This document shows, in pieces, positions 4,134-64,000 of a DNA stretch of 64,000 bases. This DNA comes from Phycisphaerales bacterium. GTDB lineage: Bacteria; Planctomycetota; Phycisphaerae; Phycisphaerales; UBA1924. Each line of letters begins with the position of its first letter. The first letter of the stretch is position 1. The DNA is taken from contig JASBRY010000001.1 of NCBI GenBank assembly GCA_030149165.1, positions 186,001 to 250,000 of the forward strand. The letters run 5' to 3'. The translations under genes were made by a program, and so were the position numbers. Below the pieces are notes generated by a model. That model was given only the letters and a program-made list of their open reading frames with translations, did not search any database and had not been told where the DNA came from.

Positions 4134-4259
4134 ATGCAAACCGGGACGGCTTCGTTTCTGGTGCCATTGGCGGGTGTATGCGGTGGCGCGGTGGGGCAGA
4201 TCTTCCCGATCCGCGCGGTTGCTGAGCCGATCTGGCCCGTCAATATGGGGATGGGATGA
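4134..4259 (+). CDS. Short signal-peptide-like ORF preceding a dockerin-like ORF
   Basis: A 41-codon ORF with a good ribosome site (GGGAG, seven to eight bases before ATG 4134). It encodes a hydrophobic start (FLVPLAGVCGGAVGQ), like a secretion signal, followed by a segment resembling the beginning of FG-GAP proteins. Its TGA overlaps the ATG of the next ORF (ATGA at 4256-4259). The simplest reading is that this ORF and the next are pieces of one secreted FG-GAP/dockerin gene broken by frameshift or deletion; a coupled pair of small proteins is the alternative. Confidence 0.4.
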   Translation: MQTGTASFLVPLAGVCGGAVGQIFPIRAVAEPIWPVNMGMG

Positions 4260-4660
4260 AGAACTTGCTGAGTAGTTCGTACACAGATGACTCGAGTGGA
4301 TTTAAGAACACGGTTTCCGAGATGTTCCAGAGAGCGGCGCGAGAGTTTGGGCCGATGGTATCGATCGCGGATGTGAACCTGAGAGGGGTGAATATCGTGG
4401 ATCTGGATTCGGATGGGGGCGTGGATCTGATCGCGTGTTCAAATGGAACAAATGTCCCGCGTGTGGTGCGTATGTACTACGGGATCGACCAGGTGCGTCC
4501 GGCGGATTTGAACTTCGACGGCTCGTTGAACTACTTGGACATCGCGCTGTTTGTGAAGCTGTTTCGTGAACAGCGCGAGACGGCGGATTTGGATCGGGAC
4601 GGCGAGTTCGACTTCCAAGATATGGAACTGTTACTTAACTTTTATACAAGTTGTCCATAA
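4256..4660 (+). pseudogene. Remnant FG-GAP plus dockerin-like protein
   Basis: A 134-residue ORF with one FG-GAP-like segment (VDLDSDGGVDLIACSNGTN) followed by a two-repeat calcium-loop tail (ADLNFDGSLNYLDI... and ADLDRDGEFDFQDM...) ending in SCP. The tail is a divergent relative of the six tails at 54.7-63.9 kb but lacks the Cys that precedes the first repeat in those. It has no signal peptide of its own; the only one is in the ORF overlapping its start. FG-GAP proteins usually carry many repeats, so this looks like a shortened, decaying gene. It could still be translated by coupling. Confidence 0.5.
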
Positions 4661-15170: not shown

Positions 15171-15299
15171 GGATGCATGATAGAGGGGTGAGTCCAGAAT
15201 GAAGGGCCTAGAATCACGCTGATCGCCGGATGTGCGATTGCAAGTGATGAAATCAACCCGCTTTACCGCACCAGAACACTGCTTGGCGAGGAGACCAGG

Positions 15300-16412
15300 A
15301 TGACAACCGCGACGCTCGAACGGAACTTGACGATTGATGTGGCTTCTGTCCTTGAGGACGATGCGCTGCTGAGCTTCGATTCTCCGGCGATCTCCAAGGA
15401 TCGACTGAACCTGCCGGGTGGTGATTTTATCGATCGCGTGATGGCGATGAGTGATCGCAATCAGAATGTGCTCAACAACTACAACCGCATCCTCAATACG
15501 GGTCGGCTCGCGGGAACAGGGTACACCTCGATCCTTCCTGTTGACCAAGGCATCGAGCACAGCGCGGGCGCCTCGTTCGCTCCGAATCCGGACTACTTCG
15601 ATCCAGCGAACATCATCGAGCTCGCGATCGAAGGCGGCTGCAACGCGGTCGCTTCGACCTTCGGCGTGCTCGGCGCTACGGCTCGTAAGTACGCGCACAA
15701 AATCCCGTACCTCGTCAAGTTCAATCACAACGAGCTGATGACCTACCCCAACACCTTTAACCAGATCCCGTTCGGCACGATCAAGCAGTGCTGGGAGATG
15801 GGCGCCGCTGCTGTTGGTGCAACCATCTACTTTGGTTCTGAGGAGTCCAACGATCAGATCCAGTATGTCGCGGATATGTTTGCGGAAGCACACGACTACG
15901 GCATGGTCACTGTGCTCTGGTGCTACATGCGCAACAACGCGTTTAAAGTCAACGGCGTGGATTACCACGCATCGTCCGACCTGACCGCGCAAGCGAACCA
16001 CCTCGGTGTCACGATCCAAGCGGACATCATCAAGCAGAAGCTCCCCACCAACAACGGCGGGTACAAAGCACTCAACACGGGCGACTCGTCCTACGGCAAG
16101 TTTGACACTTCGATCTACACGAAGCTCAACTCCAGCGATGAGAACGGCAACGGCGGTCATCCGATCGATCTGTGTCGCTACCAGGTCGCGAACTGCTACA
16201 TGGGGCGCATGCCTCTGATCAACTCAGGCGGCGCTTCGAGCGGCGCGGGTGATCTGAAGGAAGCGGTCACGACCGCGGTCATCAACAAGCGTGCAGGAGG
16301 CATGGGCTTGATCTCAGGGCGCAAGGCGTTCCAGCGTCCGATGGGCGAGGGCGCGGCGCTGCTGCATGCGATTCAGGATGTGTACTTGGATGAATCAGTC
16401 ACCATCGCATAA
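15300..16412 (+). CDS. fbaB: Class I fructose-bisphosphate aldolase (DhnA/FbaB type)
   Basis: A 370-residue Schiff-base aldolase of the archaeal/DhnA type, cleaving fructose 1,6-bisphosphate to DHAP and glyceraldehyde 3-phosphate in glycolysis and gluconeogenesis. Landmarks are [12 protein letters not shown] near residue 80, VKFNHNEL, and the phosphate-binding end [15 protein letters not shown], which carries a family-conserved Lys. The length suits the longer FbaB members. A strong GAGGAG ribosome site lies eight to twelve bases before ATG 15300. The gene's last 23 bases overlap the start of the next ORF. Codon use is highly regular with C-ending codons, as expected for a highly expressed gene. 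Confidence 0.93.
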
Positions 16413-23308: not shown

Positions 23309-24067
23309 ATGCGATATCAATATCGCGTCCGCGCCGGGTTTACGCTCATCGAGCTGTTGGTGGTCATCGCGATCATCGCGCTGCTGATCGGGATGTTGCT
23401 CCCCTCGCTCTCTGGAGCGCGGGACAGCGCGCGATCGGTCAAGTGTCTCGCTTCGATGCGCTCGCTCGGGATCGCGATGAATCTGTATCTGGATGACAAC
23501 GACGGGGTGTTCCCACGCTCGAAGCACTCGGCGGGGTTCTCAGGTGAGCTCACCTGGGCGCCCCAGATGTTCGAGTACCTCACGGATCAAAGCTTTGAGG
23601 GGGATTCCGATCTCTGGCAGAGCGATTCGTGGTGGAGCGCGACCAACGAGTTCTATCGGTGCGCTCATGATCAGAGAGAGAGCCCGATTGAGCAGCCCGG
23701 TTTGCCGTTTTCGACGGCGGCGGTGAGCTACGGGATGAATGTGTATTACGAGCTGCGGCGAGAAGAGATCGATCCGGGTCGGTTTATGGGTGATCGGTTC
23801 GAGCCGTATCGGAAACGATCGGCGACGCCTCATCCATCAAAGACGATCCTGCTCGGAGAGGTCAAGGACACGCTGAATGTCGACCACATCATGGCTCATT
23901 TCTGGCGCACGCGTGGTGTGCCAGCGGGCTTTGAGGTGGCACACGATCGGCACGGAGACAACGCGGGATACCTGATGCTCGATGGGCACGCTGCGGCGCG
24001 CTCACTTGCTGAGGTGTATGACGCGGACAATGCGCGGGACCAGTGGTATCCCGCGATGGCACAGTAA
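23309..24067 (+). CDS. Prepilin-type N-terminal cleavage/methylation protein (DUF1559-like)
   Basis: A 252-residue pseudopilin-like protein. RAGFTLIELLVVIAIIALLIGMLLPSL is a textbook type IV prepilin signal, cleaved before Phe by PilD. The globular part contains YLDDNDG and ends with H-D-R-H-G-x-N-A-G-Y-L-M-L-D-G-H, fitting the H-x9-DG motif of the large planctomycete pseudopilin families. GGGAGG at 23295-23300 eight bases before ATG 23309 decides the start over an upstream ATG at 23258. Planctomycetes encode many copies; the role may be in a type II secretion-like apparatus or in the surface. Confidence 0.85.
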   Translation: MRYQYRVRAGFTLIELLVVIAIIALLIGMLLPSLSGARDSARSVKCLASMRSLGIAMNLYLDDNDGVFPRSKHSAGFSGELTWAPQMFEYLTDQSFEGDSDLWQSDSWWSATNEFYRCAHDQRESPIEQPGLPFSTAAVSYGMNVYYELRREEIDPGRFMGDRFEPYRKRSATPHPSKTILLGEVKDTLNVDHIMAHFWRTRGVPAGFEVAHDRHGDNAGYLMLDGHAAARSLAEVYDADNARDQWYPAMAQ

Positions 24068-24111
24068 CAAAACGCGTTCAACAGGCGCACTCAATAGAAA
24101 GAAGTTTCATA

Positions 24112-24741
24112 ATGAAGATGATGACAGTATCAATACTCACACTCGTTTCAGGTTCAGCGCTCGCGGGCGTGAGCACCCCCAATGTCTGGGGTCCGATGGA
24201 GCACATCATGCTGACCTTCGACAACGGCGAGGTGCACGCGCATGTCGGGACCGATGCGAGCACTCCCATCGAGATGCAACGCTTTGCAGGCGAGATGTAC
24301 GACGGCGCCGCGAGTGTGCTCAACGACACCTACTACTCCAGTCAATACGGCTGGCTCGCGGACGGGTTCATCAGCCTCGGACAGGAGGAGTTCATGTGGA
24401 TCGAGCATGTCGCATCGACCGCAGGTCTGAATGTGTACGAAGGCGGGCTCCGCATGATGCGTGACATGCATACATACGACGCGATCCAGGGGACCGATGG
24501 TTCCGGCGATGCGTGGAACTGGGGCGGCACGATGGTCCACAACTGGTACAGCGCCGATGCACTGGGCGCGTATGAAGCGACCTACCGCGTGTTTGTGGGT
24601 GACGCGTCAGGGAACGCGTACTCGCAGTACACGAGTGATCTGGTCACGCTGAACTTCAATGCCGTCCCTGCTCCGAGCGCGTTGGGCATGCTCGCGATGG
24701 GTGGATTCGTCGCGTCGCGTAGAAAGCGTGGTGACGCATGA
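24112..24741 (+). CDS. Secreted protein with VPAP-type PEP-CTERM-like tail (first tandem paralogue)
   Basis: A 209-residue exported protein. A signal peptide (MKMMTVSILTLVSGSALAG) is followed by a beta-rich body. The C-terminus VPAPSALGMLAMGGFVASRRKRG has the order expected of a PEP-CTERM-type sorting tail: short motif, hydrophobic helix, Arg/Lys cluster. Such tails direct proteins to an exosortase-like system; no exosortase gene is in the window. The body shares motifs with the next gene: YDGAASVLN, QYGWLA or QFGWLA, GFISL, GTDGS, HNWYS, VFVGD. The stop overlaps the next start (ATGA), so the pair is a coupled duplication. Confidence 0.72.
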   Translation: MKMMTVSILTLVSGSALAGVSTPNVWGPMEHIMLTFDNGEVHAHVGTDASTPIEMQRFAGEMYDGAASVLNDTYYSSQYGWLADGFISLGQEEFMWIEHVASTAGLNVYEGGLRMMRDMHTYDAIQGTDGSGDAWNWGGTMVHNWYSADALGAYEATYRVFVGDASGNAYSQYTSDLVTLNFNAVPAPSALGMLAMGGFVASRRKRGDA

Positions 24742-25373
24742 GAGCGGTCCTCACAACACTCACGATTTGTGCCGGGATCGCTTCGGCGGATGTGCCTCAG
24801 ATGGGTGGTCCGATGAGCCATCTGCTCGTGTCTATTTTCGATCAGCAGGTGTACTTGTCTTTTGAATCACCTCAGATGTCGACCGTTGAGATGCTTCAGA
24901 GCACAAGCACCTACGACGGCGCCGCATCGGTGCTCAATCACACTGGGATCAACTCCCAGTTCGGATGGCTCGCGTTTGGTTTCATCTCGCTCCCATCGCA
25001 GAGCGGCGTCTTCGTCCGCACGCTCGGATCGTCGGAGCATCTCTCTGTGTACTCAGAGTTTGGGTTTGATCCCATTCTTGGGACTGATGGATCGGACTCG
25101 GTCTGGCAATGGGGTGGACAGATGACGCACAACTGGTACTCCAGCGATGTGCGTGGACCACACTGGGCGCAATACGAGGTGTTCGTCGGAGATCTGCTAG
25201 GCAATCCGCTGGACGGATGGGGCAGCGCGACGATCGATCTGCACTTTGAGTTCGGACAGGACCTGAGCGGACGGATCGGATCGCTCGGGAATGTTTCAGT
25301 CGGATCAGTCCCGACTCCGGGCGCATTGTCCGTCCTCGTGATGGTCACCGTTGCGGCTCGTCGGCGTCGTTGA
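24738..25373 (+). CDS. Secreted protein with VPTP-type PEP-CTERM-like tail (second tandem paralogue)
   Basis: A 211-residue paralogue of the preceding gene, starting at ATG 24738 within the ATGA overlap. It has a short signal peptide (LTTLTICAGIASAD) and a body with the shared blocks YDGAASVLN, GWLAFGFISL, GTDGS, QMTHNWYSSD and YEVFVGD. The end, VPTPGALSVLVMVTVAARRRR, is a slightly degenerate sorting tail. A hairpin terminator follows at 25403. The shared motifs G-T-D-G-S and H-N-W-Y suggest a common carbohydrate- or metal-binding surface, but I know of no named family. Confidence 0.7.
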   Translation: MRAVLTTLTICAGIASADVPQMGGPMSHLLVSIFDQQVYLSFESPQMSTVEMLQSTSTYDGAASVLNHTGINSQFGWLAFGFISLPSQSGVFVRTLGSSEHLSVYSEFGFDPILGTDGSDSVWQWGGQMTHNWYSSDVRGPHWAQYEVFVGDLLGNPLDGWGSATIDLHFEFGQDLSGRIGSLGNVSVGSVPTPGALSVLVMVTVAARRRR

Positions 25374-39512: not shown

Positions 39513-40133
39513 ATGATCATTTCAAAGAACAAATTTCTCGCCGCCGGATTCGTCGCTGTCGGCTCGATGCTCAGCACTGCTCACGCGGACACCTTCCAAC
39601 TGATCGGAGAGGGATTCGCACAGGACTTCGGATCGAGCTTCGCAGGATCGGACAGCTTCCCGTTCACAGGACTTGAGCAGAATGATCCTGTCTCCTTCCA
39701 GTTTGAGTACGACGACCAGACCGCCGCGCACACGATCGAGGGGAATCGTGCTCGTTATACCTTTACTGGGACCGACTCCTTCTTCGTCATCGGCGACAAC
39801 ACCATGTCCGTCGACACCTTCGAGCTGATCGTCGGGACCACCAACTCGGGATTCGGACTCATCAGTATGTCTGGACGCAACGAGACCCACGGCATTACCG
39901 CTGGGATCCAGTTTGAATCCACGCAGATCATGCTCCCGATGGATGTCCCGACCTCTCTGGACACGAGCATGTTCAATAGCCTACGGATGTTCAGTGTGAA
40001 CTCCGATCAGAATCAGTTGCTGCTCCCGAACCTGTTCGGACCGATCCAATCCGCGTCCATTGTTCCCGCTCCTGGGACGATCAGCATGGTCATCGGAGCG
40101 AGCGTGGTGGGAATGCGGCGCCGACGAGGGTGA
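39513..40133 (+). CDS. Secreted protein with VPAPG PEP-CTERM-like tail
   Basis: A 206-residue exported protein with a signal peptide (FLAAGFVAVGSMLSTAHAD), a beta-rich body (SFQFEYDDQTAAHTIEGNR) and the C-terminal sorting tail VPAPGTISMVIGASVVGMRRRRG: VPAP motif, hydrophobic helix and Arg cluster. A GGAGG ribosome site ends six bases before ATG 39513. It is unrelated in the body to the tandem pair at 24-25 kb but shares the tail, so the tail is a portable sorting signal. Confidence 0.75.
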   Translation: MIISKNKFLAAGFVAVGSMLSTAHADTFQLIGEGFAQDFGSSFAGSDSFPFTGLEQNDPVSFQFEYDDQTAAHTIEGNRARYTFTGTDSFFVIGDNTMSVDTFELIVGTTNSGFGLISMSGRNETHGITAGIQFESTQIMLPMDVPTSLDTSMFNSLRMFSVNSDQNQLLLPNLFGPIQSASIVPAPGTISMVIGASVVGMRRRRG

Positions 40134-51886: not shown

Positions 51887-52318
51887 CCTCAATGCGAGGT
51901 GAATTGATCTCAATTCGTGCTCGGCACCCCCTTTCTGTGCAACCATGCCCCTTTTTTGAGCGAATACAAGGACGGCAGCCGTTCTCTGGGTGCCCGTCTC
52001 GCTTGATCTGAGCGGGATGGCTGATTCGATCAGTAGGAAATGAGAAGGGCAGGTTCTCGGACCTGACAGGAATGGTGTTTCGGGCTCGTGGGCAAGGAGC
52101 GTCCGAATCCGTTGCAGACGGTACAGAATCCTCGGATTCTCGGCTGCGATCGGTGATTCCCCTTGAAAAAGGGCGAAATTCGGGCATCCTCTTCGTGCAC
52201 ACCCGGCTTGTGATCCGCGCACGGTTCACGGCGCGGGATGCGTTCTCGATTGGTCCAACCGGACCATTGACCAAACGGACGCGCAGGAACGCGTCTATCA
52301 GAGATGGGAAGAACAGTC
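51887..52318 (+). other. 432-base non-coding leader before the first subtilase
   Basis: No supported ORF occurs here. Visible structure is modest: a near-perfect inverted repeat AGAATCC/GGATTCT at 52125-52140, a GGGAAG ribosome-like sequence just before ATG 52319, and a duplicated AATTGATCTCAATT-like motif near 51890-51915. It may hold the promoter and a long 5-prime leader of the protease gene; no known riboswitch consensus was recognised. Confidence 0.5.
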
Positions 52319-54907
52319 ATGAAGCAATCCGCTCGCAATCACATCATGAACACAACCTCCGCTGCGGCGCTCACACTCGCGCTAATCAGCGGCACAGCGA
52401 TCGCAGGAGACTCCTACGCGAGTCCGGGCACGAAGCCTGCAAACGGGACGATGATCTCCGGCGTCGCGACCCCCGTCTCACTCACCAGCTCTCAACAGAA
52501 CACGATCCGCAACGCGTTCAACTGGACCGATCGTGATGCTTCGATCCTCGACGGTACCATCTCACCATCGACAGTCTTCACCGAAGTCATCGGACTCAAA
52601 GAACGCACCAACCGACTCAATGTCCAGGTCAAGAGCACGACACAGATGCTCCAGCAAGTCGCAACCGATGCCGCGATCGCTCGCGCTGACGGACCACAAG
52701 TCCTCGGCGTCGCTCGTGACGGACAAGTCCAGGACTGGGACACGGTCATGGCGCAGGTTGAACAACGACGCATCGACGCACGCTCGCGTTTGGCGCCATC
52801 GCTCATCGAAGCATTCGACGATGTCGACATGCACACGATCCATCTGCCTGCAGGAGTCAGCGCCGAGATCATGGCGGAGATCCTCATGCAGACAGGAGAC
52901 TATGAGTTTGTCTCCATCGATTGGCTCTGCTACCCAACAGATAACATCCCCAACGATCCACGCGTGAATCTGCAGTGGTACCACCCCTCCACGCGCATCG
53001 ACACCTACGGCGCCTGGGACTTCACGACTGGCAGCGGCGAGATCATCGCGGTCTGTGACTCCGGCGTGGACATCGACCACCCAGATCTTCAAGACGCGCT
53101 GGTCCCAGGATTCAATGCCGTGGACAACCTTGCTGAAATCGATGGCGGGTTTGTTGACGACAACCTCACTGGACACGGCACGCAGGTCGCTGGTGTTGCT
53201 GCGGCGACCGGGAACAACGGCGTGGGTATCTCGGGCATCGGTTGGAACTTCGGGATTATGCCTTGTAAGGTTTCCAACATCGCGTCCGGCAACGCGTTCC
53301 TTTCTGACATCCTTCAAGGAGCTCGTTGGGGTTCGGACAACGGCGCGTACGCATCGAACTGCTCTTACGGCGGTGCTGAAGATCCCGCGAGTTTCTCTAC
53401 AGGCGCACACATCCGCGCCGAAGGACACCACCTCGTCTTCGCATCGGGTAACGACGGCGTGGGTAACCAAACCAACGACTGGGACACCGTCACCATTGTC
53501 GGGGCTTCAAACTCCAGTGACAACTACGCCGGATTCTCGAACTTCGGGATTGGTATCGACTGTATCGCGCCTGGCGCGAGCGTCCAGTCCACCACACGCA
53601 CGGGCGGATACGCCAACACAACTGGAACGAGCTTTGCCGCTCCGATCACCGCTGGCGCGCTCATGCTCGTGCACTCCGCGAATCCGTCCCATGGACCAGC
53701 AGAGGTCGAGGAAATTCTCCTCAACGCATGTGACGACAAAGAAGGTCTTGGCGAGGACAACCTCACTGGACATGGACGCATCAATGTCGGACGAGCGGTC
53801 GAAGACGCGATCTTTGGACCTTCGCTCATCAGCCTTCCATACATGGATGAGTTCAACGATCCGACACTCACGCTCTGGCGCGACGCAGTTGGAGATGTCG
53901 AAGTCAATGAGGATGCGATGAATGAGCCGACTCCAGGCGGATCGCTCAATCTCGGATCCACGGCTGAGATCAACACCATCATGGTTCGCTGCACCGAACT
54001 CCAGTTCACCACAGGCGAGATCAACTTCCAGACACAGCACATCGGGACTGAAGCCGGCGAGGACCTGCTCGTCGAGTACCGCACTGTGCTCAATACATGG
54101 GACACACTCGCGATTATTCCATCAGACGGCAACGATCAAAGCGAGTTTACCTTCCATCGCTACGAGTTCCCGTTCCTCGGATTTCATGACATGTTCCGCT
54201 TGCGTTTCTCAACTGCAGGAGACGAAGCAAACGACAACTGGTACATCGATGATGTGAACATCCAGTACTTCACAGGAAACACGGTCCCTTGGTTCGTCGA
54301 TTTCGAGAACGGCATCTCCCTCAACTTCGACTGGGAGATCAATGAAGGGATCGCGAGTATCGCCGCGGACAACGAACCTTCAGGCACGCAGAGCGTGAAC
54401 CTCGACAACACCGATTCCATGACCTCGAAAGGCTTGGACATGACGAGCCAGGTCCCACCAATTTATGTTCAGTTCTACACCCAGCACAAGGGTGTTGAGA
54501 ACGGCGAGTCTCTCCATGTCGAGTACCTCGATCTTCTTGGATCGTGGCAAGACCTAACCACAGTCGTTTCTGACGGCGTGGACCAGAGCGAGTTTGAACT
54601 CACACAGCTCGAACTCCCGATCTTCGCATTCGGCGGGAACCTCAAGCTCCGCTTTACGGCACAAGGTGACGAGGCAAACGACGACTGGTTCGTCGACAAC
54701 ATCGCGATCACCACTGAGTTCATCGACGAGGTCGATCCGTGTCCTGCGGATCTCAACGACGACGGCTCACTCAACTTCCTTGATGTTTCCGCGTTCCTCT
54801 CGCTGTACGGACTGCAGGATCCAGCTGTTGACTTCCAAGCCGACGGTTCATTTAACTTCCTTGATGTGTCCGCATTCCTTTCCGCGTACGGGATGGGATG
54901 CCCATAA
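52319..54907 (+). CDS. Secreted subtilase (S8) with C-terminal dockerin-like tail, copy 1
   Basis: An 862-residue exported serine protease. A signal peptide (AAALTLALISGTAIAGD) precedes a fervidolysin-type prodomain (HLPAGVSAEIMAEILMQTGDY). The catalytic triad is Asp (AVCDSGVDIDHPDL, about 246), His (GHGTQVAG, about 285) and Ser (GTSFAAP, about 438), with oxyanion Asn in FASGNDG. Two similar beta-sandwich repeats (QHIGTEAGEDLLVEY... and QHKGVENGESLHVEY...) follow. The tail begins after Cys: CPADLNDDGSLNFLDVSAFL and DGSFNFLDVSAFLSAYGMGCP. It leads a two-gene unit with the next subtilase. Confidence 0.92.
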   Translation: MKQSARNHIMNTTSAAALTLALISGTAIAGDSYASPGTKPANGTMISGVATPVSLTSSQQNTIRNAFNWTDRDASILDGTISPSTVFTEVIGLKERTNRLNVQVKSTTQMLQQVATDAAIARADGPQVLGVARDGQVQDWDTVMAQVEQRRIDARSRLAPSLIEAFDDVDMHTIHLPAGVSAEIMAEILMQTGDYEFVSIDWLCYPTDNIPNDPRVNLQWYHPSTRIDTYGAWDFTTGSGEIIAVCDSGVDIDHPDLQDALVPGFNAVDNLAEIDGGFVDDNLTGHGTQVAGVAAATGNNGVGISGIGWNFGIMPCKVSNIASGNAFLSDILQGARWGSDNGAYASNCSYGGAEDPASFSTGAHIRAEGHHLVFASGNDGVGNQTNDWDTVTIVGASNSSDNYAGFSNFGIGIDCIAPGASVQSTTRTGGYANTTGTSFAAPITAGALMLVHSANPSHGPAEVEEILLNACDDKEGLGEDNLTGHGRINVGRAVEDAIFGPSLISLPYMDEFNDPTLTLWRDAVGDVEVNEDAMNEPTPGGSLNLGSTAEINTIMVRCTELQFTTGEINFQTQHIGTEAGEDLLVEYRTVLNTWDTLAIIPSDGNDQSEFTFHRYEFPFLGFHDMFRLRFSTAGDEANDNWYIDDVNIQYFTGNTVPWFVDFENGISLNFDWEINEGIASIAADNEPSGTQSVNLDNTDSMTSKGLDMTSQVPPIYVQFYTQHKGVENGESLHVEYLDLLGSWQDLTTVVSDGVDQSEFELTQLELPIFAFGGNLKLRFTAQGDEANDDWFVDNIAITTEFIDEVDPCPADLNDDGSLNFLDVSAFLSLYGLQDPAVDFQADGSFNFLDVSAFLSAYGMGCP

Positions 54908-54938
54908 GAGCACATCATTCAACTTTGCCACTTACTTC

Positions 54939-54969
54939 ATGTCCCGCGGCTTGGACAGTCGCGGGATGT
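54939..54969 (+). other. Hairpin between the two plus-strand subtilases
   Basis: TCCCGCG (54942-54948) pairs with CGCGGGA (54960-54966) around an 11-base loop, extendable by weaker pairs to 54939-54969. No T-run follows, and the AGGAG site for the next gene starts five bases later. It may tune expression of the downstream gene or mark an RNA end. Confidence 0.5.
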
Positions 54970-54988
54970 CATTAGGAGACCAACACCA

Positions 54989-57385
54989 ATGTCTTTGAAA
55001 CTTACTCTTGCCAAAGCGACCGCTGTAGTCGCACTCATGTCCGCTTCTGGAATTGCGACGAGCGCATTCGCAGGGCCAACCGCGGATGCACCTAAGAACT
55101 CGCAGAGCCAATCCATCTCGGCATCTGCGAAACTTGATGCCGTCAAGGCATCATTCGATCTGCTCCAAGGCGACGAGCAACGCATGCTCGAAGCGCTCCA
55201 GAGCCCCCTCCAGTTCACAGAGATGCAGGGCTCTCGCGAGTTCACACGCGAACTGATTGTCCACGCAAACGAGGGCAAGGTCGCGAATGCTCAGTCGCGT
55301 CTCTCACGCTCGCTGGTCAAGTCCAGCGCTTTCGTGAACGAGTATGTCGTCAAGGTTCCAGAGGGTGTGAGCGAAGGCGAAATGGCCGCGATGCTCATGT
55401 CGACTGGAGACTACCTGTTCGTCGAACCAAACTGGACCCTCTTCCCGCTCGCAGTCCCGAACGATTCACAGTACGGATCGAGCTGGCAGCACACGCGCAT
55501 TCAGTCCGCAAACGCATGGGACCTGCACACCGGCGAGAGCGACATCATCGTCGCGGTTTGTGACTCTGGTGTAGACACCAACCACCCAGACCTCGAAGAC
55601 GCGTATGTCCCAGGATACAACGCGGTCAACAACCAAACAGAAGTCAACGGCGGACAAGTTGAAGATGTCAACGGACACGGGACGTTCGTCTCCGGATGTG
55701 CCGCCGCTCAAGGGAATAACGCTCGCGGCGTTGTCGGCGTGGGCTGGGACTTCAGCGTCATGCCGATCCGTGTGAGCAACAACTCCAGCGGCACCGCGAG
55801 TGGATTTGACATCCTTGAAGGCGCCCGCTGGGCCGTAGACAACGGCGCCCACGCAATCAATGCATCCTTCTCAGGAGGTACAAGCACTTCGAATCAAGTC
55901 ACAGCTCGCTACATCATCGATCGAGGCGGATTGCTCTTCTGGTCTTCAGGGAACAACGGGAGTCTGATCACATACGACGGACCTGACATCGTCATTGTCG
56001 GATCCACGACATCTTCAGACAACCGATCCTCATTCTCAAACTTCGGACCTGCGGTCGATATCACTGCTCCTGGATCCTCCGTCCGCTCTACACGGCGCGG
56101 AGGGACCTACGGCAACGGATCGGGCACAAGCTATGCGTCTCCGATCGCCGCCGGTGTTGGAGCGATGATTTACTCAGTGCGTGATGACCTGAGCGGTCGC
56201 GATGTGCAGGACATCCTGTACCGCAGCGTCGATGACCTCGGCGCACCAGGACGCGACGATTCGTTCGGTCGCGGTCGTGTCAACACCTTCAACGCGATCC
56301 AAGTGGCGCAGTCATATGTCCCTCGCTATAACCTTCCGATCGATGAGTCCTTCGATTCCGCATCGTGGACTGAGATCTTCGATAGCACCGGTACTCCCGC
56401 GACTGTTCCAGACGCAGAGTCTGGTACAGGATCTGTCCTCGAACTCAACGGCAATGACCAGATCACTTCGGTCTTCCTTGCCGGGCGCTCCGCGGCAACA
56501 TTCCCTGGAATCAGCTTCTCGTTCCGCACTGTCGGAGTCGAAGCGGGTGAATCCCTGCTCGTCGAAATCCTGACCGAAGATGGAAACTGGGAATCTATCT
56601 ATGACTACGCGTCCACTGGCGCCGATAGCGATGGATACATCGATGTCGCGTTCCAACTCCCAACAACTTTCCTCTGGCACGGTGTGCAGCTCCGCATGAG
56701 CACCCCAGGATCGGACATCAACGATCAATGGCTCATCGACGATCTCTTCGTCGGTGTGCTTGAAGCTGAGCCCACAGCACCGCTCGTTGATTCATTCGAT
56801 TCTGGTCTCATCTCACCACTCAAGTGGGACGACATCGATGGAGCCAGCGTCGAGATCGTTGGCAGCACCTACGCAGCATCAATGACCGGTGAAGCACTCC
56901 TCGAATCACAAGATGTCGCGATGTTCCAGTTCGGAATCGTCCCAGGATACATCCATCTGGATCTTTGGGCCGACGCAAACGCAGGCGCGGATGACACCAT
57001 CCTCGTCGAAGTCCGCAATGTGCTCGGAAACTGGGAAACACTCGACACCCTCGACGGCAGCGAGCTTGGTTCTTCGCCGCAGGTGTTCGAGTACCAGACC
57101 CCTCCTGCGGCGTGGGGTAACGACATCGGTCGCGTCCGCTTCACCACTGCGGGTAATGACGCAATCTACATCGACAATGTGTACTATGGCCCAGATGAGC
57201 TGACGCAGATGTGTTCACCTGCGGACTTTGCAGAGCCGTATGGCCAACTCAACTTCCTCGATGTTTCTGCGTTCTTGAGTGCGTTCGGGAGTAACGATCT
57301 TGCCGCAGACCTTGATGGGAGCGGGACCTTCAACTTCCTTGATGTGTCCGAGTTCCTGAGCGTCTTCGGAGCAGGCTGCCCGTAA
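54989..57385 (+). CDS. Secreted subtilase (S8) with C-terminal dockerin-like tail, copy 2
   Basis: A 798-residue paralogue of the preceding protease: signal peptide (AVVALMSASGIATSAFAG), prodomain (KVPEGVSEGEMAAMLMSTGDY), triad Asp about 192 (AVCDSGVDTNHPDL), His about 230 (NGHGTFVSG) and Ser about 381 (GTSYASP), with the oxyanion Asn in WSSGNNG. Beta-sandwich repeats follow. The dockerin-like tail starts MCSPADF; its first loop is degenerate (AEPYGQLNFLDVSAFL, one residue longer and missing acidic ligands), and the second is canonical (DLDGSGTFNFLDVSEFL), ending AGCP. AGGAG precedes the ATG. A clear terminator follows. Confidence 0.92.
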   Translation: MSLKLTLAKATAVVALMSASGIATSAFAGPTADAPKNSQSQSISASAKLDAVKASFDLLQGDEQRMLEALQSPLQFTEMQGSREFTRELIVHANEGKVANAQSRLSRSLVKSSAFVNEYVVKVPEGVSEGEMAAMLMSTGDYLFVEPNWTLFPLAVPNDSQYGSSWQHTRIQSANAWDLHTGESDIIVAVCDSGVDTNHPDLEDAYVPGYNAVNNQTEVNGGQVEDVNGHGTFVSGCAAAQGNNARGVVGVGWDFSVMPIRVSNNSSGTASGFDILEGARWAVDNGAHAINASFSGGTSTSNQVTARYIIDRGGLLFWSSGNNGSLITYDGPDIVIVGSTTSSDNRSSFSNFGPAVDITAPGSSVRSTRRGGTYGNGSGTSYASPIAAGVGAMIYSVRDDLSGRDVQDILYRSVDDLGAPGRDDSFGRGRVNTFNAIQVAQSYVPRYNLPIDESFDSASWTEIFDSTGTPATVPDAESGTGSVLELNGNDQITSVFLAGRSAATFPGISFSFRTVGVEAGESLLVEILTEDGNWESIYDYASTGADSDGYIDVAFQLPTTFLWHGVQLRMSTPGSDINDQWLIDDLFVGVLEAEPTAPLVDSFDSGLISPLKWDDIDGASVEIVGSTYAASMTGEALLESQDVAMFQFGIVPGYIHLDLWADANAGADDTILVEVRNVLGNWETLDTLDGSELGSSPQVFEYQTPPAAWGNDIGRVRFTTAGNDAIYIDNVYYGPDELTQMCSPADFAEPYGQLNFLDVSAFLSAFGSNDLAADLDGSGTFNFLDVSEFLSVFGAGCP

Positions 57386-57407
57386 GCACATCTACTTCAC
57401 AGAGAAC

Positions 57408-57449
57408 AATCAGCCGAGCAGAGACCCACTTCTGCCCGGCTGATTTTTT
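57408..57449 (+). terminator. Intrinsic terminator after subtilase copy 2
   Basis: AATCAGCCG (57408-57416) pairs with CGGCTGATT (57437-57445), with an inner stem GCAGA/TCTGC, followed by a run of six T (57444-57449). It lies 23 bases past the stop and close to the converging third subtilase. Confidence 0.92.
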
Positions 57450-57488
57450 GCGCTGATCGCTCAGCGTATAAAGCTCTTGTCAGTTGCA

Positions 57489-60400
57489 TTAAGGACAACC
57501 CGCGCCGTACTGGAGCAGGAACTCAGAGATGTCCAGGAAGTTGAACTGTCCGTTGTCGTCCAGATCCGCGATGGGATCCTGAGCGCCGTACGCGCCGAGG
57601 AATCCGGACACATCCAAGAAGTTGAGTGAGCCGTCACCGGTAAAGTCCGCGACGCATCCCTGATCCTGCTCGCACACAAACTGTGTGATCCGGATATTGT
57701 CGAGTCCCGCTTCGATGACATTCTGCTGACCAACATCGTCCGCAATGAATCGGAACCGCATCGTCGAAGAAACGCCGATCTCATCACCCACAACAATCGT
57801 GTCGCTGCGCCACGCGCCCGCGACGCTCGTGCTTGAGCGGAGCGTCGTCCAAGTCGATCCGCCGTTGGTGGATGCCTCGACCACCCAAGTGTCGCCGTTG
57901 ACTTCGCCCGTCGGGATGTCGGAGTACCAGTAATCGAACGAGAACTCTCCGCCGTCGCTCATGTCGTAAATCGGCGAGGTGAGGATTGTCGTCCCTTCGT
58001 CCACATCGGAGTTGCACGAGTTCCCGGCATCGTTGTCGGTCACCCAGCAGATCCCGGATCCATCGGAGTCTTCTCCCGGAGCGCCTCTGCTCGAACAATC
58101 AACAGGAACTCCACGCGCCCACTGTCCATCGAGCGCGTCGCCGCTGACAGTCCAGCCGTTGTCGTTCTGGAAGTTGTCCGTGAGCACGAGCTGGATCTCT
58201 CCGACTTCCGAATGCTCCGGATTGCTCGCGCCAGACGGCGGAGTCACAACTTCTCCGGCACTCTGACCGCTCGCGGAGATGTAGTACTCCACGAACTCGC
58301 CACACTCGGCGCCTGGGATCGATCCTGTGTATGAGCCGTCGTTGTTATCAATCATCGAGGCACTCGTGTACCCACCGCTCGCGTATCGGTAGTTGAGCGT
58401 AACCGATCCGGGAACGACGGTGTCCACGCCTTCGTTGACGAAGGCAGTGATCTCGATCGGTTGTCCAGGAAGGACCGCCGCTGGAGCGGGTTCTAAGAGT
58501 GAGAGCGAGAGCAATCCCGCGCCGATATCCAGCGCCGAAGCAATCGCGAAGCTCTGCGGCCCATCACTGACGGATGTCCCCAACACTTGCACTTGCCAAA
58601 CCCCTGATTGTGGATTCTCCACAAAGACCTGCTCGACATTGTTCAGGTGATCCTCCTGCGTGCGCACCGCGCCGGCGCTGGGACTCGATGGATTCAGTGT
58701 CCATGGATAGTGACGAGTCCCGCTCGGATCGGTCACGATCAGATCCAGATCATTGACCAGCGCTTGAGAGACATTGGGCGCGCCCGCTGGATCGTCCCAG
58801 ACCAGTGTGATCCGGAACGGACCATCGCCCTCTTCCACCATCACGGTGTAGTTCGCGCTCGTCCCCTGATCGACGCTTTCTTCGCGGAAGTTCCCAGTGC
58901 GAAGGAAGTCGATGCTGTTGACAGTGCGGATCGAGCCGTATCCGCTCTGATAGTCTGGACCTGTGTTGAGGATATCTTCAGCGCCCTCGATGAGGATCGC
59001 TTTCATGAGTTGGTTGGTCGGATCTCCCCACGCCGGATACTGCGATCTGAAGTCCTGAAGAATCAGTGCACCGACCCCCGCTGCTGTTGGAGACGCCATG
59101 GAAGTTCCGCACAGTGAGATGTACTGCGAGTTGCTTCCGTCTCCAGTCGAGGTGACGCCGTTGTCTCCGCCGCTCTGACATCCCGGCGCAGACACGACTG
59201 GGCGCAAGCGTCCATCATCCGATGGACCCCAACTCGAGAAACTCGTCATTGAGTCGTCGTTGGAGTTGAGCGCACCGATCGAGATCGCGTTCTTGTTGTT
59301 GCTTGGAGGTGCTGTCGTGCCGTACCCGGTCCCGCAGCGTCCGTTGCCGCGTTCGTTGCCCGCGGCCCAGAACACAATGATCGGTTCACCAAGCGAACCA
59401 CGCACGACATTGTCGATCGTCCCGGCAGTAATGCCGTAATCGCCGTGCCATGAGCAGTCATAACCGTTCTGCGCAACATTGGATCCGATCGAGTTGTTCG
59501 CGATCGAAGCGCCGAGCGACAACGCGAGCGAGTAATCCGATTCCAGGTCTCCGGGATCGGTGTAGAGGAATCCGGCGCCGAGACCACCTGCGACCTCGAA
59601 TCCAGCGCCGAGCAGGTTCACTCCTGGCGCCATGCCACGATGGTTGAATGTCGTGCTACCGTCGCCTCCGATGGTTCCCGCGACATGCGTCGCGTGGTAA
59701 TGCACGGCTGTGGAATCAATGTTCGTTGCTCGTCCCGAGAAATCATTGTGTGATTCGCGAATAGTGCCACCGTCGTACACAAGCACCGTCACCCCAGTCC
59801 CATCGAGCGAGTACGGCGACGACTGCGCGGTGTTCACCTGGGTAATCCCGCGATTCGATGCATTCGTCACTTCCATTGGAGGAAGCGGAGGCTCCACCCA
59901 CTGCACGCGCTCGTCGTTCGCGAGCAGCTTCAAGTTCTTGTAAGGCATCTCCACAACCACTGTGTTCATCGACATCACGACCGAACGCACGCGCCCATTG
60001 TGCGCACGCACCATCGCATCGATGTCAACGGATGACGCATCCACATCGCGGTGCAGCATGACATACGCCGCGACGGTTGGATTGGTGAGTTCTCCCGCAA
60101 GCTCACCAGACTGCACTTTGACGCTGCTCGCGCCGACGATCGACCAATCGGGGATCTCGTCGTTCTGGATCTTCGGATGCAACTTGTGTGCCGTGGAAAT
60201 CGGTCCCGCTTCGATTACACGATCCGCGATCGCGAAGGTGTCCGCATCGATCGCGACGCGCGCAAAGTAGGTCGTCTCGCTGACAGGACTGAGCAGTTCC
60301 AGACCCTCTCCGCTTAGTTGCTCGCGTGTGCTCTGATCCGGAGTTTGTGCGAATCGAACGAGGACATACCCGCCGTGCGCTGTCGGAGTGTTCTTGCTGG

Positions 60401-60551
60401 ATGCGTCGAGCAGGACGCGCTGAGCGGGCTCAACACTCAATCGCGCTTGCTGAGGATTCGCTTGTTCGTTCTTCCACTGCACTGGAGCGCCGGCGGCATT
60501 GCCGCTGATCGACGCGAGGATCGCGATCATCGAGGGAGCGAATCGGCGCAT
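57489..60551 (-). CDS. Large secreted subtilase (S8) with dockerin-like tail, copy 3 (different architecture)
   Basis: A 1020-residue exported protease. The signal peptide is RRFAPSMIAILASISGNAAGA; an upstream ATG at 60599 is an alternative start. A long N-terminal prosegment leads to the triad Asp about 260 (VLVYDGGTIRESHNDF), His about 289 (YHATHVAGTIGG) and Ser about 484 (LCGTSMASPTAAG), with oxyanion Asn in FWAAGNERG. After it comes a P-domain-like beta-sandwich (VWQVQVLGTSVSDGPQSFA), then more beta modules. The end is QGCVADFTGDGSLNFLDVSGFL and DDNGQFNFLDISEFLLQYGAGCP. It is not closely similar to copies 1 and 2 outside the tail. Confidence 0.9.
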   Translation of the reverse strand: MRRFAPSMIAILASISGNAAGAPVQWKNEQANPQQARLSVEPAQRVLLDASSKNTPTAHGGYVLVRFAQTPDQSTREQLSGEGLELLSPVSETTYFARVAIDADTFAIADRVIEAGPISTAHKLHPKIQNDEIPDWSIVGASSVKVQSGELAGELTNPTVAAYVMLHRDVDASSVDIDAMVRAHNGRVRSVVMSMNTVVVEMPYKNLKLLANDERVQWVEPPLPPMEVTNASNRGITQVNTAQSSPYSLDGTGVTVLVYDGGTIRESHNDFSGRATNIDSTAVHYHATHVAGTIGGDGSTTFNHRGMAPGVNLLGAGFEVAGGLGAGFLYTDPGDLESDYSLALSLGASIANNSIGSNVAQNGYDCSWHGDYGITAGTIDNVVRGSLGEPIIVFWAAGNERGNGRCGTGYGTTAPPSNNKNAISIGALNSNDDSMTSFSSWGPSDDGRLRPVVSAPGCQSGGDNGVTSTGDGSNSQYISLCGTSMASPTAAGVGALILQDFRSQYPAWGDPTNQLMKAILIEGAEDILNTGPDYQSGYGSIRTVNSIDFLRTGNFREESVDQGTSANYTVMVEEGDGPFRITLVWDDPAGAPNVSQALVNDLDLIVTDPSGTRHYPWTLNPSSPSAGAVRTQEDHLNNVEQVFVENPQSGVWQVQVLGTSVSDGPQSFAIASALDIGAGLLSLSLLEPAPAAVLPGQPIEITAFVNEGVDTVVPGSVTLNYRYASGGYTSASMIDNNDGSYTGSIPGAECGEFVEYYISASGQSAGEVVTPPSGASNPEHSEVGEIQLVLTDNFQNDNGWTVSGDALDGQWARGVPVDCSSRGAPGEDSDGSGICWVTDNDAGNSCNSDVDEGTTILTSPIYDMSDGGEFSFDYWYSDIPTGEVNGDTWVVEASTNGGSTWTTLRSSTSVAGAWRSDTIVVGDEIGVSSTMRFRFIADDVGQQNVIEAGLDNIRITQFVCEQDQGCVADFTGDGSLNFLDVSGFLGAYGAQDPIADLDDNGQFNFLDISEFLLQYGAGCP

Positions 60552-60668
60552 AGACAGTAGAGTTGGTGTGTGAATCCCGCTGGGTGACCTTGAGAACATA
60601 TCGGTCTCCGGAATGTCAGTCGATCGCGAGCCCAAACAACACGAGCATCAAACTACCGACTCAAATCA

Positions 60669-60696
60669 AAGCGAGCGCCCTTTCGAGCGCCCGCTT
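60669..60696 (-). terminator. Intrinsic terminator after the cytochrome gene
   Basis: On the minus strand a 12-bp stem with two G-T pairs (60685-60696 with 60669-60680) is closed by a GAAA loop and followed by TGATTTG. It lies ten bases past the cytochrome stop at 60706 and before the third subtilase start. Confidence 0.8.
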
Positions 60697-60705
60697 AGGA
60701 AGTGG

Positions 60706-62610
60706 TTATGGACATCCCTGCGCGTAGAGCGACAGGAACTCGGACACATCGAGGAAGTTCCACGATGCATCCTCAACAAGGTCGGCGCTTGGATCCTGAT
60801 TGCCGTACGCAGCAAGGAACGCGGAGACATCGAGGAAGTTGAGATCGCCCTCGCCGGTGAAGTCTGCTGGACATCCGCCGTTGAACTCGATCATCGCAAA
60901 GTCCATCTCGACCTTTGGGCTCTTGCCGTGCAGCACCCACTGGTCGTACGCGATCTCGCCGGTGCTCGGATTCATCGGATCGACACCAGTCTGATCGTTC
61001 TCATCGCGCAGGAATTCGATGTACTCCTTGCTCACGAGCTGGAAGTACACACGAACCTCGGCTTTGGTCGCACCAGCAGGGATCGCATAATCAGTATCGT
61101 CCCAGTACTGCCCGTCCATGTAGGAGTACGCGACAGGTTCTGCTTGCACAGACTCGAATCCAGCGTTCGTGAATCCACGAGGAGGAATGCGGTTGTCCTT
61201 GATCCATACATTGTTTGCGGCGAAGTGGAAGCCTTCCCCTTCGGGGATGCCGGTCGCTGCAGAAACCGCGGCATCAACACCCAGCTTCGCTTCGTAGACC
61301 TTGGTGTCACCCGTGGAAAGTACAGCGGTCGAATCGTCGTACGCGCCGTGCTCAGCTACCAGGTTGTTCATGTCGTCGAGGAAGCGAACATTGATCCACA
61401 TCCGGCGGCCTTCAGGGTAACCAGTCGGGAGCTTGTGACCAGTCTGGTTGATGATGCGCACATTCAGGTTCGAGCCGTCTTCATCAAGCTCGAGATCAGA
61501 CGCGTTTTCAAGCATCATCTCAGCACGAGCGATGGAGTCCGCCGCGAGTTCTGCGGTCAGACCAGTCTCGAGGTCTGGGTACAGATCACGCACCGCGTTG
61601 AGCACCCAGTTGTTGCCGCCGTTGAAATGGTGCGCCGGCATATCCGGACGAGGGGTTGGATCAATGCGGCACGCGTTCTCAGTCACATCCGGCATGTGAC
61701 AGTCCTGGCAGGTCGAAACCTCGATCTTGTTTCCACCGAAGCGGCCACCCATATCGATCGGTGCGATTGCAAAGTCACTCTGCAACCACTCGGAGTAGGT
61801 CCGCTCGACCGGGAACATGTCGTACTTATCAAAGGTCTCGTGTGGAGTTCCCAGCGCGTTGAGTGCGTAGGTCCCGTCGGGTTGCTTACTGAACGCTGGG
61901 TTGGACACATCGTGACAAGTTGCGCACATCGCGGATTGCTGATGGAACGGCGAGAACTCCCACGCGTGGAAAGAGAAGTCACCAAGATCAAATGGGCCGC
62001 GACGACGATCGTAGAAGTCCACCACATACGCACCAGTGTGTGGGTTTGGAGTAACCTCATCGACCCCAGCGTTCAATCCCTTAATCCCTTGGAAGACTTC
62101 AAGGTCTGCCAATGGCACCGGGTTTGGATTATCAATATTCTCAGGATCCACCATGCGGTGACAGAAGTTACACGAAACTCCTTGGAAATCGATCCCCTCA
62201 AGCGCCGAGCCATCGGTTGGTTCCGAGCGCCCGCTCAACCAACCATTGGGTGTGTGACAACGCAGACACAGGTCGCCAGCGAACGCGACATCCTGATTTG
62301 CGATCGACAACGCCGCATGGAAGATCGGATCGCGCGTTGCTTGCCCCATCATCGAACTGACCCAACCTTCGTACGGATCAAAGTCGTGCTCTGGAACCGA
62401 GTGACACGCGGCACAGTTATTTGAATCTGAAACCGGGTGACTCAATGTCTCAGGTTGTGTGCCTGGAAGGAAGAAGTCATCGATCGTGGTCGGCACAGGC
62501 GCCGAGATCGCGGTAGTCGCAAGACCAGTCAGCGCGATCAACCCGGCCATCACGCCGGTCAATGCTGTTCGGTGTTTATACAAAGCGACACCGTCTCCAA
62601 GACCATTCAT
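60706..62610 (-). CDS. Pentaheme cytochrome c with dockerin-like C-terminal tail
   Basis: A 634-residue exported protein. The signal (TGVMAGLIALTGLATTAISAP) predicts export, where haems are attached. Five CxxCH motifs are present: CAACH (about 66), CLRCH (115), CNFCH (147), CATCH (229) and CQDCH (301), similar in order to cytochrome c554/c-type respiratory nitrite or hydroxylamine partners, though the exact family is uncertain. Further His residues (HKLPTGYPEGRR region) may be distal ligands. Its C-terminus is the two-repeat tail GCPADFTGEGDLNFLDVSAFL and DASWNFLDVSEFLSLYAQGCP. GGAGG sits seven bases before ATG 62610. Confidence 0.9.
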   Translation of the reverse strand: MNGLGDGVALYKHRTALTGVMAGLIALTGLATTAISAPVPTTIDDFFLPGTQPETLSHPVSDSNNCAACHSVPEHDFDPYEGWVSSMMGQATRDPIFHAALSIANQDVAFAGDLCLRCHTPNGWLSGRSEPTDGSALEGIDFQGVSCNFCHRMVDPENIDNPNPVPLADLEVFQGIKGLNAGVDEVTPNPHTGAYVVDFYDRRRGPFDLGDFSFHAWEFSPFHQQSAMCATCHDVSNPAFSKQPDGTYALNALGTPHETFDKYDMFPVERTYSEWLQSDFAIAPIDMGGRFGGNKIEVSTCQDCHMPDVTENACRIDPTPRPDMPAHHFNGGNNWVLNAVRDLYPDLETGLTAELAADSIARAEMMLENASDLELDEDGSNLNVRIINQTGHKLPTGYPEGRRMWINVRFLDDMNNLVAEHGAYDDSTAVLSTGDTKVYEAKLGVDAAVSAATGIPEGEGFHFAANNVWIKDNRIPPRGFTNAGFESVQAEPVAYSYMDGQYWDDTDYAIPAGATKAEVRVYFQLVSKEYIEFLRDENDQTGVDPMNPSTGEIAYDQWVLHGKSPKVEMDFAMIEFNGGCPADFTGEGDLNFLDVSAFLAAYGNQDPSADLVEDASWNFLDVSEFLSLYAQGCP

Positions 62611-62700
62611 CGCACATCCTCCAAGATTTCCTTGTGCACTGATCACACGACCCGATCGGATCGTTCACCAATACTATTGTCGCCAAACCAGTGAAAGGAT

Positions 62701-62733
62701 GCAAGAAAAGATCCCGAAATTCGGGATCTTCTT
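62701..62733 (-). terminator. Intrinsic terminator after the 62819-63634 gene
   Basis: AAGATCCCGAA (62708-62718) pairs with TTCGGGATCTT (62720-62730), with a short loop, and on the minus strand is followed by TTTTCTT. It lies about 90 bases beyond the stop at 62819 and separates that gene from the cytochrome gene. Confidence 0.8.
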
Positions 62734-62818
62734 GTATGTTGGATTGTGCCGACTAGCTCGGGTTCCTGTTGACCGATAACGCGACCATCAATCCCTGTTC
62801 ATTATCCGAACAGCGTCC

Positions 62819-63634
62819 TTATGGACAACCCGCTCCGAACAAACTCAGGAACAACGAAACATCGAGAAAGTTGTACTGTCCGTCTACATTGATATCCGCT
62901 GCAGGATCCTGTGCCGCAAACAAACCAAGGAACGCGGATACATCGAGGAAGTTGAGCTGACCATCATCTGTGAAGTCAGGAACACAGCTCGGCAGTTCAG
63001 CCGTCGCAACAAGCGTCGCGGATCCAGTCACAATCACTGTCCCGATCTCGCTCCCCTCAACGATGAGTGGCTGACTCGTCTCGATCGCGATCGTGTTCGT
63101 CAATGTAATGTCATCCATCCCGACCACGATCATCCCAGAGATGTCGTCCGCTGTAGGACCCAGATCCGCGAGGTTGATGATCTCTGTACCACTCCCAAAC
63201 AGGAAGATGTTGTAGTTCACCGTCAGCACACCGCTCACGATCGTTGGAACCATCGGGAAGGTCACATCGCCGGACACGACTGGGACTGGACCCAGAATCG
63301 TCCCAGGCTCAGCGTACTCCACTGATCCGCCGGTCAGCGTCGCCGAAGCGGTCGAAAGAAACGCGGGCACCCAGTCGAACTGCAGGTCGTTATCAATCGC
63401 ACCAAAGAAATCGTACAGCGAAGACTCGCTCGCCGCGGCTGGATCATCAAACGACGCCGTCACCATGCCGGAGACCGACGAGCTGTCCGAATCGGTGTCA
63501 CCACCCAAAGTCCCAAGATCGATCTCGATCGTGAGATCGATGGAAGACTGCATCGGATCAACAACAAAGTCCAACGGCTGCGCCGCAGCACTTGTCGCGA
63601 GCACCATACCAATCAAAACACCAGTCGCTTTCAT
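62819..63634 (-). CDS. Secreted beta-rich protein with dockerin-like tail
   Basis: A 271-residue exported protein. Signal peptide MKATGVLIGMVLATSAAAQ, then a beta-rich body with alternating hydrophobic and Thr/Ser/Asp strands (TVNYN, GSGTEIINLADLG), no catalytic motif visible. The tail is PSCVPDFTDDGQLNFLDVSAFL and DINVDGQYNFLDVSLFLSLFGAGCP. The body may be an adhesin- or scaffold-like domain. It lies between the cytochrome gene and another dockerin-tailed gene, all transcribed leftwards. Confidence 0.8.
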   Translation of the reverse strand: MKATGVLIGMVLATSAAAQPLDFVVDPMQSSIDLTIEIDLGTLGGDTDSDSSSVSGMVTASFDDPAAASESSLYDFFGAIDNDLQFDWVPAFLSTASATLTGGSVEYAEPGTILGPVPVVSGDVTFPMVPTIVSGVLTVNYNIFLFGSGTEIINLADLGPTADDISGMIVVGMDDITLTNTIAIETSQPLIVEGSEIGTVIVTGSATLVATAELPSCVPDFTDDGQLNFLDVSAFLGLFAAQDPAADINVDGQYNFLDVSLFLSLFGAGCP

Positions 63635-63690
63635 ATCTATACCTTCGCTTTCCCTGCGCTGCAGGATTGAAACCAGTCACCCTACCCAGA

Positions 63691-64000
63691 TCAGCCGCAG
63701 GTGCCGCTGTAGATCTGCAGGAACAAGGACACATCGAGGAAGTTGAAACTCCCGTCACCATTGATATCGCCGCGCACATCGCCGTCACCATAGAAACTCA
63801 GGAATGCGGACACATCGAGGAAGTTGAGCAATCCGTCGCCGGTCAGATCCGCCGCGCAAGTCAACACCACAAAAGCGCGTCCCGACTCATAAATGACTTT
63901 GTAATCCAAACCCGCCGGCGCTGCTGGGAAGATGTTCGTCGCAAACTCGCCGTTCACCGTGCCGCCCGTGATGATCTCCCAAGTGTCCAGGAACATCGGG
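63691..64000 (-). CDS. C-terminal part of a secreted protein with dockerin-like tail (cut by window edge)
   Basis: At least 100 residues are visible before the window edge; the frame stays open to base 64000. The visible body end (WEIITGGTVNGEFATNIFPA, AFVVLTC) resembles the closing of a choice-of-anchor or PAL-like beta-domain. The tail is LTCAADLTGDGLLNFLDVSAFL and DINGDGSFNFLDVSLFLQIYSGTCG. This copy ends in TCG rather than GCP, but a Cys is still next to the end. Calcium-loop residues D, N/D and D are well kept in both repeats. The gap to the next gene is 56 bases. Confidence 0.75.
   Translation of the reverse strand, partial: PMFLDTWEIITGGTVNGEFATNIFPAAPAGLDYKVIYESGRAFVVLTCAADLTGDGLLNFLDVSAFLSFYGDGDVRGDINGDGSFNFLDVSLFLQIYSGTCG

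Follow-up and report, generated by a model that had tools for sequence, protein, structure and literature searches.

A C-terminal tail shared by six neighbouring proteins

Why do six neighbouring proteins, subtilases and a cytochrome-like protein among them, all end in the same small module with a cysteine at either end? The question arises from a 64-kb stretch of DNA of an uncultured planctomycete of the order Phycisphaerales (positions 186,001 to 250,000 of contig JASBRY010000001.1, assembly GCA_030149165.1; hereafter, the window). An earlier note on this DNA had described six tails, each with two dockerin-like loops, a Cys before the first loop and another at the end, and we found all six where it had placed them (P1 to P6; Table 1). 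Each tail carries two terminal loops of the type D-x-x-x-[DE]-G-x-[LF]-N-F-L-D, with the first Cys three to four residues ahead of the Asp that opens loop 1 and a final Cys as the penultimate residue; five tails end in GCP and one (P6) in TCG. When we compared such tails across this genome and its relatives, we found that their loops carry a genome-wide, lineage-specific code. This code is new and is our most informative result, the domain itself being already known by name.

All six tails exceed the curated cut-off (29 bits) of the NCBIfam profile NF041540 'dockerin_GC' ('GC-type dockerin domain-anchored protein'), with scores of 31.7-45.1 bits, and the public name GC-type dockerin that the note had given for them is correct. 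The literature we searched yielded no paper using this name, and no GC-type dockerin partner, disulfide test or lineage code. The carriers had also been called unrelated. This is too strong: three of them (P1, P2 and P3) belong to the S8 subtilases, two of which, P1 and P2, form a tandem pair of paralogues with 36% identity. The P6 frame is truncated by the window edge and encodes 1011 amino acids in the full genome.

The tail contains two calcium loop-helix repeats with the ligand pattern of dockerins (positions 1, 3, 5, 9 and 12). Over 158 loops, Asp occupies position 1 in 148, Asp or Glu position 5 in 143, Asn position 9 in 156, and Asp position 12 in every loop. An AlphaFold2 model built from 76 tails (predicted local distance difference test score, pLDDT, of 81) places helices at residues 20-31 and 47-59. 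The PDB matches listed in a structure comparison were dockerins only, namely 2vn5_B (Z 5.0; 54/56 residues, 2.9 Å) and 2ozn_B (Z 4.8), with deviations of 2.6-2.9 Å over 54-59 residues. The modelled tail fold is thus dockerin-like, albeit with modest scores. Sequence-profile searches likewise place cellulosomal dockerins first, if weakly, and all six tails miss the gathering score of the Pfam dockerin family PF00404 (best 20.8 versus 22.9 bits).

The assembly (2.84 Mb in 11 contigs; genome label G000) contains many more such tails. A genome-wide search with NF041540 gave 101 matches, 83 of them over the cut-off, and inspection left 100 tails or tail-like sequences, a count far beyond chance in 2.84 Mb. 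Where a terminal Cys is present, exactly one residue follows it in 74 of 79 tails. The cargo is varied: 60 of the tail proteins fall into 46 Pfam families, including FG-GAP repeats, MauG-type and animal-type haem peroxidases, M43 and M64 peptidases, endonuclease I and GH16. Among relatives, which are Phycisphaerales metagenome-assembled genomes, NF041540 was present in all 36 sampled genomes of family f1, mostly in dozens of copies. Searches of phage records and plasmid records gave no match.

Two cysteines that are kept and lost together

The earlier note had made its proposal of a disulfide depend on conservation of the Cys pair across the genome. Among the 100 tails, 89 have both Cys, six have neither, three have the first only and two the last only (Fisher p = 2e-6), and in two of the three with the first only, the second Cys sits directly ahead of a C-terminal extension. 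Ten related genomes show the same behavior, with both Cys in 75 of 80 tails, neither in three and a single one in two. The Cys pair is thus conserved in both sets, as the note's proposal required. The two residues act as one unit, and their joint keeping and joint loss are what a bond between them predicts. They lie 53 residues apart in 62 tails, and Cys makes up 0.1% of the residues between them versus 0.85% in the remainder of the same proteins.

A bond at this place had been proposed to set these tails apart from classical dockerins. This contrast is too strong, as classical dockerins clasp the same ends non-covalently: the ends touch via Tyr5-Pro66 in a Clostridium thermocellum dockerin (PMC4728124) and via Trp651-Pro727 in the Ruminococcus flavefaciens ScaA dockerin, and a stabilizing role of the clasp is established (PMC5934362). 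Because the same ends meet, the Cys pair is best read as a covalent version of this known clasp. Judged from sequence conservation, a disulfide clasp between the tail ends is well supported but unproven.

A lineage-specific code in the loops

We compared the tails of 14 relatives with those of this genome at loop positions 9-11 and 13-18. Residue identity at these positions is 0.72 within genera versus 0.27 between them, and the nearest-neighbor tail comes from the same genus in 141 of 146 cases. The code spans both loops: between different proteins, loop 1 and loop 2 match at 0.72, the same value as for loop 1 against loop 1. Written as 12 residues, it reads NFLDVSAFLSAF in this genome and NFFDVSAFLNAF in a sister species, and other relatives have DFFDVQAFLNAF, NTLDFLAFLNAF, NTQDVLAFLNAW, TIFDFLAFQNLF, TADDIIVFLNWF and DASDFFYYLDQF.

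Information about the genome of origin is concentrated at a few positions. Mutual information with genome peaks at positions 14, 11 and 10 (2.01, 1.93 and 1.74 bits, versus about 0.4 bits when shuffled) and is zero at position 12, a calcium ligand. In dockerins, the positions that determine cohesin specificity are 10, 11, 17, 18 and 22; at 10/11, C. thermocellum has Ser/Thr and mesophilic clostridia have Ala/Leu(Ile) (PMC5748583). At position 11, loops within a single genus differ: Leu occupies 125 of 146 loops in this genome, and Phe occupies 32 of 32 and 26 of 28 loops in two sister species. The related genera represented by G319 and G323 also have Phe, and by parsimony Phe would therefore be ancestral and Leu derived in this genome.

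The P5 protein allows the tail to be compared with its carrier. The bodies of P5 orthologues in family f1 are 33-41% identical, and each bears the tail code of its own genome; in seven of seven genomes, the P5 tail resembles those of unrelated proteins of the same genome (mean 0.73) more closely than it does those of its orthologues (0.50). An orthologue from a more distant family (G294) has dockerin loops that lack the Cys pair. By these comparisons, a tail's code depends on the genome and not on the protein that bears it. Recent copying does not explain this, since synonymous codons in tails of different proteins agree at near-background levels (0.54-0.56 versus 0.51-0.53 expected, with codon-pair context allowed for). 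The code is most simply explained by protein-level selection that a shared partner exerts, with concerted evolution alone as the rival view. The code, which the earlier note did not contain, is also the best evidence for such a partner.

A proposed shared partner

We propose that two calcium loop-helix repeats make the tail a dockerin-type module, which many kinds of exported proteins bear at their C terminus. A disulfide would hold its ends together where classical dockerins use an aromatic-proline clasp. After export and oxidation, the module would dock via positions 10, 11 and 14 and neighboring residues of its two near-identical loops onto a shared partner on the cell envelope, one other than a cohesin that PF00963 recognizes in this genome. 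When the pocket of the partner changes, more than 100 loops would change together because all must fit the same partner, and each lineage would arrive at a code of its own. We put the probability of this reading, in which a disulfide-clasped dockerin fits a single receptor in each lineage and docks exported proteins, at roughly 0.58. A bolder version falls somewhat short of even odds in our estimate: that a planctomycete family docks at least 100 disulfide-clasped dockerins on a non-cohesin receptor, and that tags and receptor were recoded together, with a Phe-to-Leu change at position 11 having swept, in one lineage of the genus, through almost every tail and through both of its loops.

Several observations weigh against docking by a clasped two-loop module. 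No docking partner was found in searches of this genome with PF00963 and with a cohesin profile built from relatives. The fold-match scores are modest, although this is as expected for 60 residues. Changes at positions 13, 16, 17 and 20 may reflect packing, not binding. The surface location is putative, and the signal-peptide heuristic is rough, being positive in 78 of 100 tail proteins versus 63 of 174 control frames. Finally, four half-tails have a single calcium loop yet carry a Cys before the loop and another at the end, which a head-to-tail clasp of two loops does not account for.

If the bolder version holds, these tails would form a self-consistent, genome-wide recognition code that evolves together with a single receptor. 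The case would also be an example of a hundred interfaces shifting in concert. Dockerins in genomes that lack cohesins are common in annotation and mostly unexplained, and the code offers a handle on the missing partner. Such a partner must be common to all tails of a genome, must be encoded in every tail-rich genome, and must have a pocket opposite position 11 that varies from one sister species to another. Orthogonal, disulfide-locked tags would also be on offer for surface display and enzyme assembly.

Alternative explanations

The leading alternative is an ordinary cohesin-dockerin system in which the cohesin has diverged past recognition, with the tail binding a cohesin of beta-sandwich fold that is part of an adaptor or an anchor. 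This arrangement would resemble the planctosome proposed for Nemodlikiaceae, freshwater planctomycetes, which rests on cohesin-bearing anchor and adaptor proteins (PMC6461901). It leads because several cohesin proteins of family f4 also bear dockerin-like loops, matching the published planctosome adaptor in outline (PMC6461901). The code also lies at classical cohesin-contact positions (PMC5748583), and recognizable cohesins exist in some relatives: PF00963 matches 9 of 121 genomes of the order, and the profile built from relatives matches 12 of 61 f1 genomes. The earlier note had seen no cohesin in the window, and genome-wide searches agree, with no PF00963 match in this genome at E<=10 and no match to the relatives' profile at E<=0.1 in this genome, its sister G371 or the tail-rich genomes G002, G335, G359 and G377. 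The note had also suggested looking for a co-distributed receptor, and cohesins do not behave as one: their distribution is patchy and unrelated to tail number, and we rejected the relatives' cohesins as the shared receptor. We consider a cryptic cohesin unlikely on balance.

Alternatively, the tail may be a secretion or sorting signal that an outer-membrane export machine reads once, in a role like that of type IX cargo C-terminal domains, with no lasting anchor. The strict C-terminal position, the many kinds of exported cargo and a genome-wide code would all suit a single reader. A search for the SprA translocon gave no match in 61 genomes, and the control genomes gave no match either. The distribution of another C-terminal tag seemed to favor a sorting role: families f2 and f3, which for the most part have no GC tails, are rich in PEP-CTERM tags, whereas the model finds few of these in f1 and f4. 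This split is unclean, however, as exosortase is present in 121 of 121 genomes, genus g262 has both tags, and three short exported proteins in the window itself have PEP-CTERM-like tails (Table 1). In addition, two natural tails extend 23-33 residues past the matched domain. A signal of this kind is, in our view, distinctly improbable.

The three PEP-CTERM-like tails each combine a VPAP/VPTP motif with a hydrophobic segment and an Arg cluster, and two C-terminal tag systems therefore coexist in the window. We also considered replacement of PEP-CTERM by GC tails, since the counts look complementary. We rejected it given the universal exosortase and the presence of both tags in the window, which also bar any claim of an exclusive choice of tag; the model may undercount PEP-CTERM tags, and the complementary counts are suggestive only.

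A third possibility is that the tail is an end cap with no partner, stabilized by calcium and a disulfide, and that the code merely records descent, the tails of a lineage having spread by duplication or recombination and stayed alike through concerted evolution. A stabilizing clasp has precedent in classical dockerins (PMC5934362), and the two loops of one tail share synonymous codons slightly above expectation (0.61 versus 0.51), so that some exchange between repeats probably occurs. Between proteins, however, synonymous codons are almost at background, so the tails are no recent copies; orthologues keep their bodies yet bear the code of their own genome; and lineage information is concentrated at recognition positions instead of being evenly spread. 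We give this explanation little credence.

Least likely of all, the terminal Cys may bond between molecules, linking one tail protein to another or to some surface protein that has a Cys, as the half-tails with two Cys might suggest, since the two-fold symmetry of dockerins would let them pair front Cys to partner's end Cys; the great majority of tails have two loops at near-constant Cys spacing, however, and the adjacent ends of known dockerins (PMC4728124) suit a bond within the molecule.

Comparison with known systems

The tails match the GC-type dockerin model NF041540 in their terminal GC, two loops and C-terminal position, besides exceeding its cut-off. The public model gives a domain name only, and most tails here have loops shorter than those of this 67-position model. 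Like the type I dockerins of clostridial cellulosomes (PF00404; 2vn5, 1ohz), they have two calcium loop-helix repeats whose loops are symmetric, residues at positions 10 and 11 that are specific to the species, and ends joined by a clasp. They differ in having a Cys pair instead of the aromatic-proline clasp, in falling below the Pfam gathering score, and in the absence from this genome of any cohesin found by PF00963 or the relatives' profile. Their cargo also differs: peptidases, FG-GAP repeat proteins, peroxidases and cytochromes predominate, and enzymes that degrade polysaccharides are few.

As in the proposed planctosome, planctomycete dockerins are found here on peptidases without a cellulosome (PMC6461901), but no cohesin-bearing anchor or adaptor was recognizable in this genome by the same two profiles. 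Like PEP-CTERM/exosortase tags, the tails form a genome-wide C-terminal tag on unrelated exported proteins. Unlike those tags, each is predicted to be a folded, Asp-rich calcium loop-helix domain with Cys, and lacks the short motif, hydrophobic segment and Arg cluster.

Feature coordinates and further observations

Coordinates of the tails, their carriers and other features are collected in Table 1. A seventh, weak tail in the window scores 27.5 bits with NF041540, under the cut-off, and 25 bits with PF00404, over the cut-off. The window also encodes a Ser/Thr protein kinase of 1313 amino acids with tetratricopeptide (TPR) repeats.

Table 1. Positions of dockerin-like tails, carrier genes and other features. 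Coordinates are those of the window unless a contig (C) is given.
Feature	Coordinates	Strand	Details
P1, S8 subtilase	52304-54907	+	
P1 tail, GC-type dockerin	54735..54907	+	Stop codon included; Cys codons 54740-54742, 54899-54901; 35.1 bits
P2, S8 subtilase	54989-57385	+	
P2 tail, GC-type dockerin	57206..57385	+	Cys codons 57212-57214, 57377-57379; 34.2 bits
P3, S8 subtilase	57489-60635	-	
P3 tail, GC-type dockerin	57489..57659	-	Cys codons 57654-57656, 57495-57497; 31.7 bits
P4, multihaem-cytochrome-like protein	60706-62646	-	
P4 tail, GC-type dockerin	60706..60876	-	Cys codons 60871-60873, 60712-60714; 37.3 bits
P5, 271 amino acids, no Pfam match	62819-63634	-	
P5 tail, GC-type dockerin	62819..62989	-	Cys codons 62984-62986, 62825-62827; 45.1 bits
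P6 tail, GC-type dockerin	63691..63861	-	Ends TCG; Cys codons 63856-63858, 63697-63699; 36.8 bits
Seventh, weak dockerin tail	4502..4660	+	In a 134-amino-acid open reading frame (4256-4660); last Cys only, 4652-4654
Ser/Thr protein kinase	12219-16160		
PEP-CTERM-like protein	24043-24741		
PEP-CTERM-like protein	24738-25373		
PEP-CTERM-like protein	39513-40133		
Half-tail, L075 (G000)	C6:566641-566721		
Half-tail, L064 (G000)	C5:1965-2042		
Half-tail, L068 (G000)	C6:106699-106779		
Half-tail, L091 (G000)	C10:399642-399728		
Internal loop pair, L102	C10:1086164-1086310		Host frame 2073 amino acids
Internal loop pair, L104	C10:1424536-1424679		Host frame 1764 amino acids

Some tails in the genome depart from the common form. 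A few (L063:3810-6778, L067 and L106) have an insertion early in the loop, D-[LFI]-AGNPDG-[TS]-PDG, which resembles the long-loop codes of genomes G359 and G344. The half-tails possibly pair between two chains. Two internal pairs of dockerin-like loops, far from the C terminus and without Cys, lie in very long frames that appear RHS-like by eye.

The window also shows an unusual tetranucleotide composition. ACGT is nearly absent, with 4 occurrences seen versus 184 expected, and other stretches of the genome (L060-L106) have 54 versus 1191 (ratio 0.05), a depletion extreme for a bacterial genome. The AATT ratio is 0.46 over the window and the same loci. Avoidance of the two words forces codon pairs, so that Asp-Val is almost always written with GAT and Asn-Phe almost always with AAC. 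The tail nucleotide motif AACTTCCTCGATGT, in which 90% of loops have GAT at position 12, arises from this codon-pair bias, and we rejected it as a DNA signal or a trace of recent copying. Among relatives, the ACGT ratio is 0.00-0.11 in the metagenome-assembled genomes WUAJ, JARGNC and JALSHW and in G371, G389, G319 and G270, and is near 1.0 in G323.

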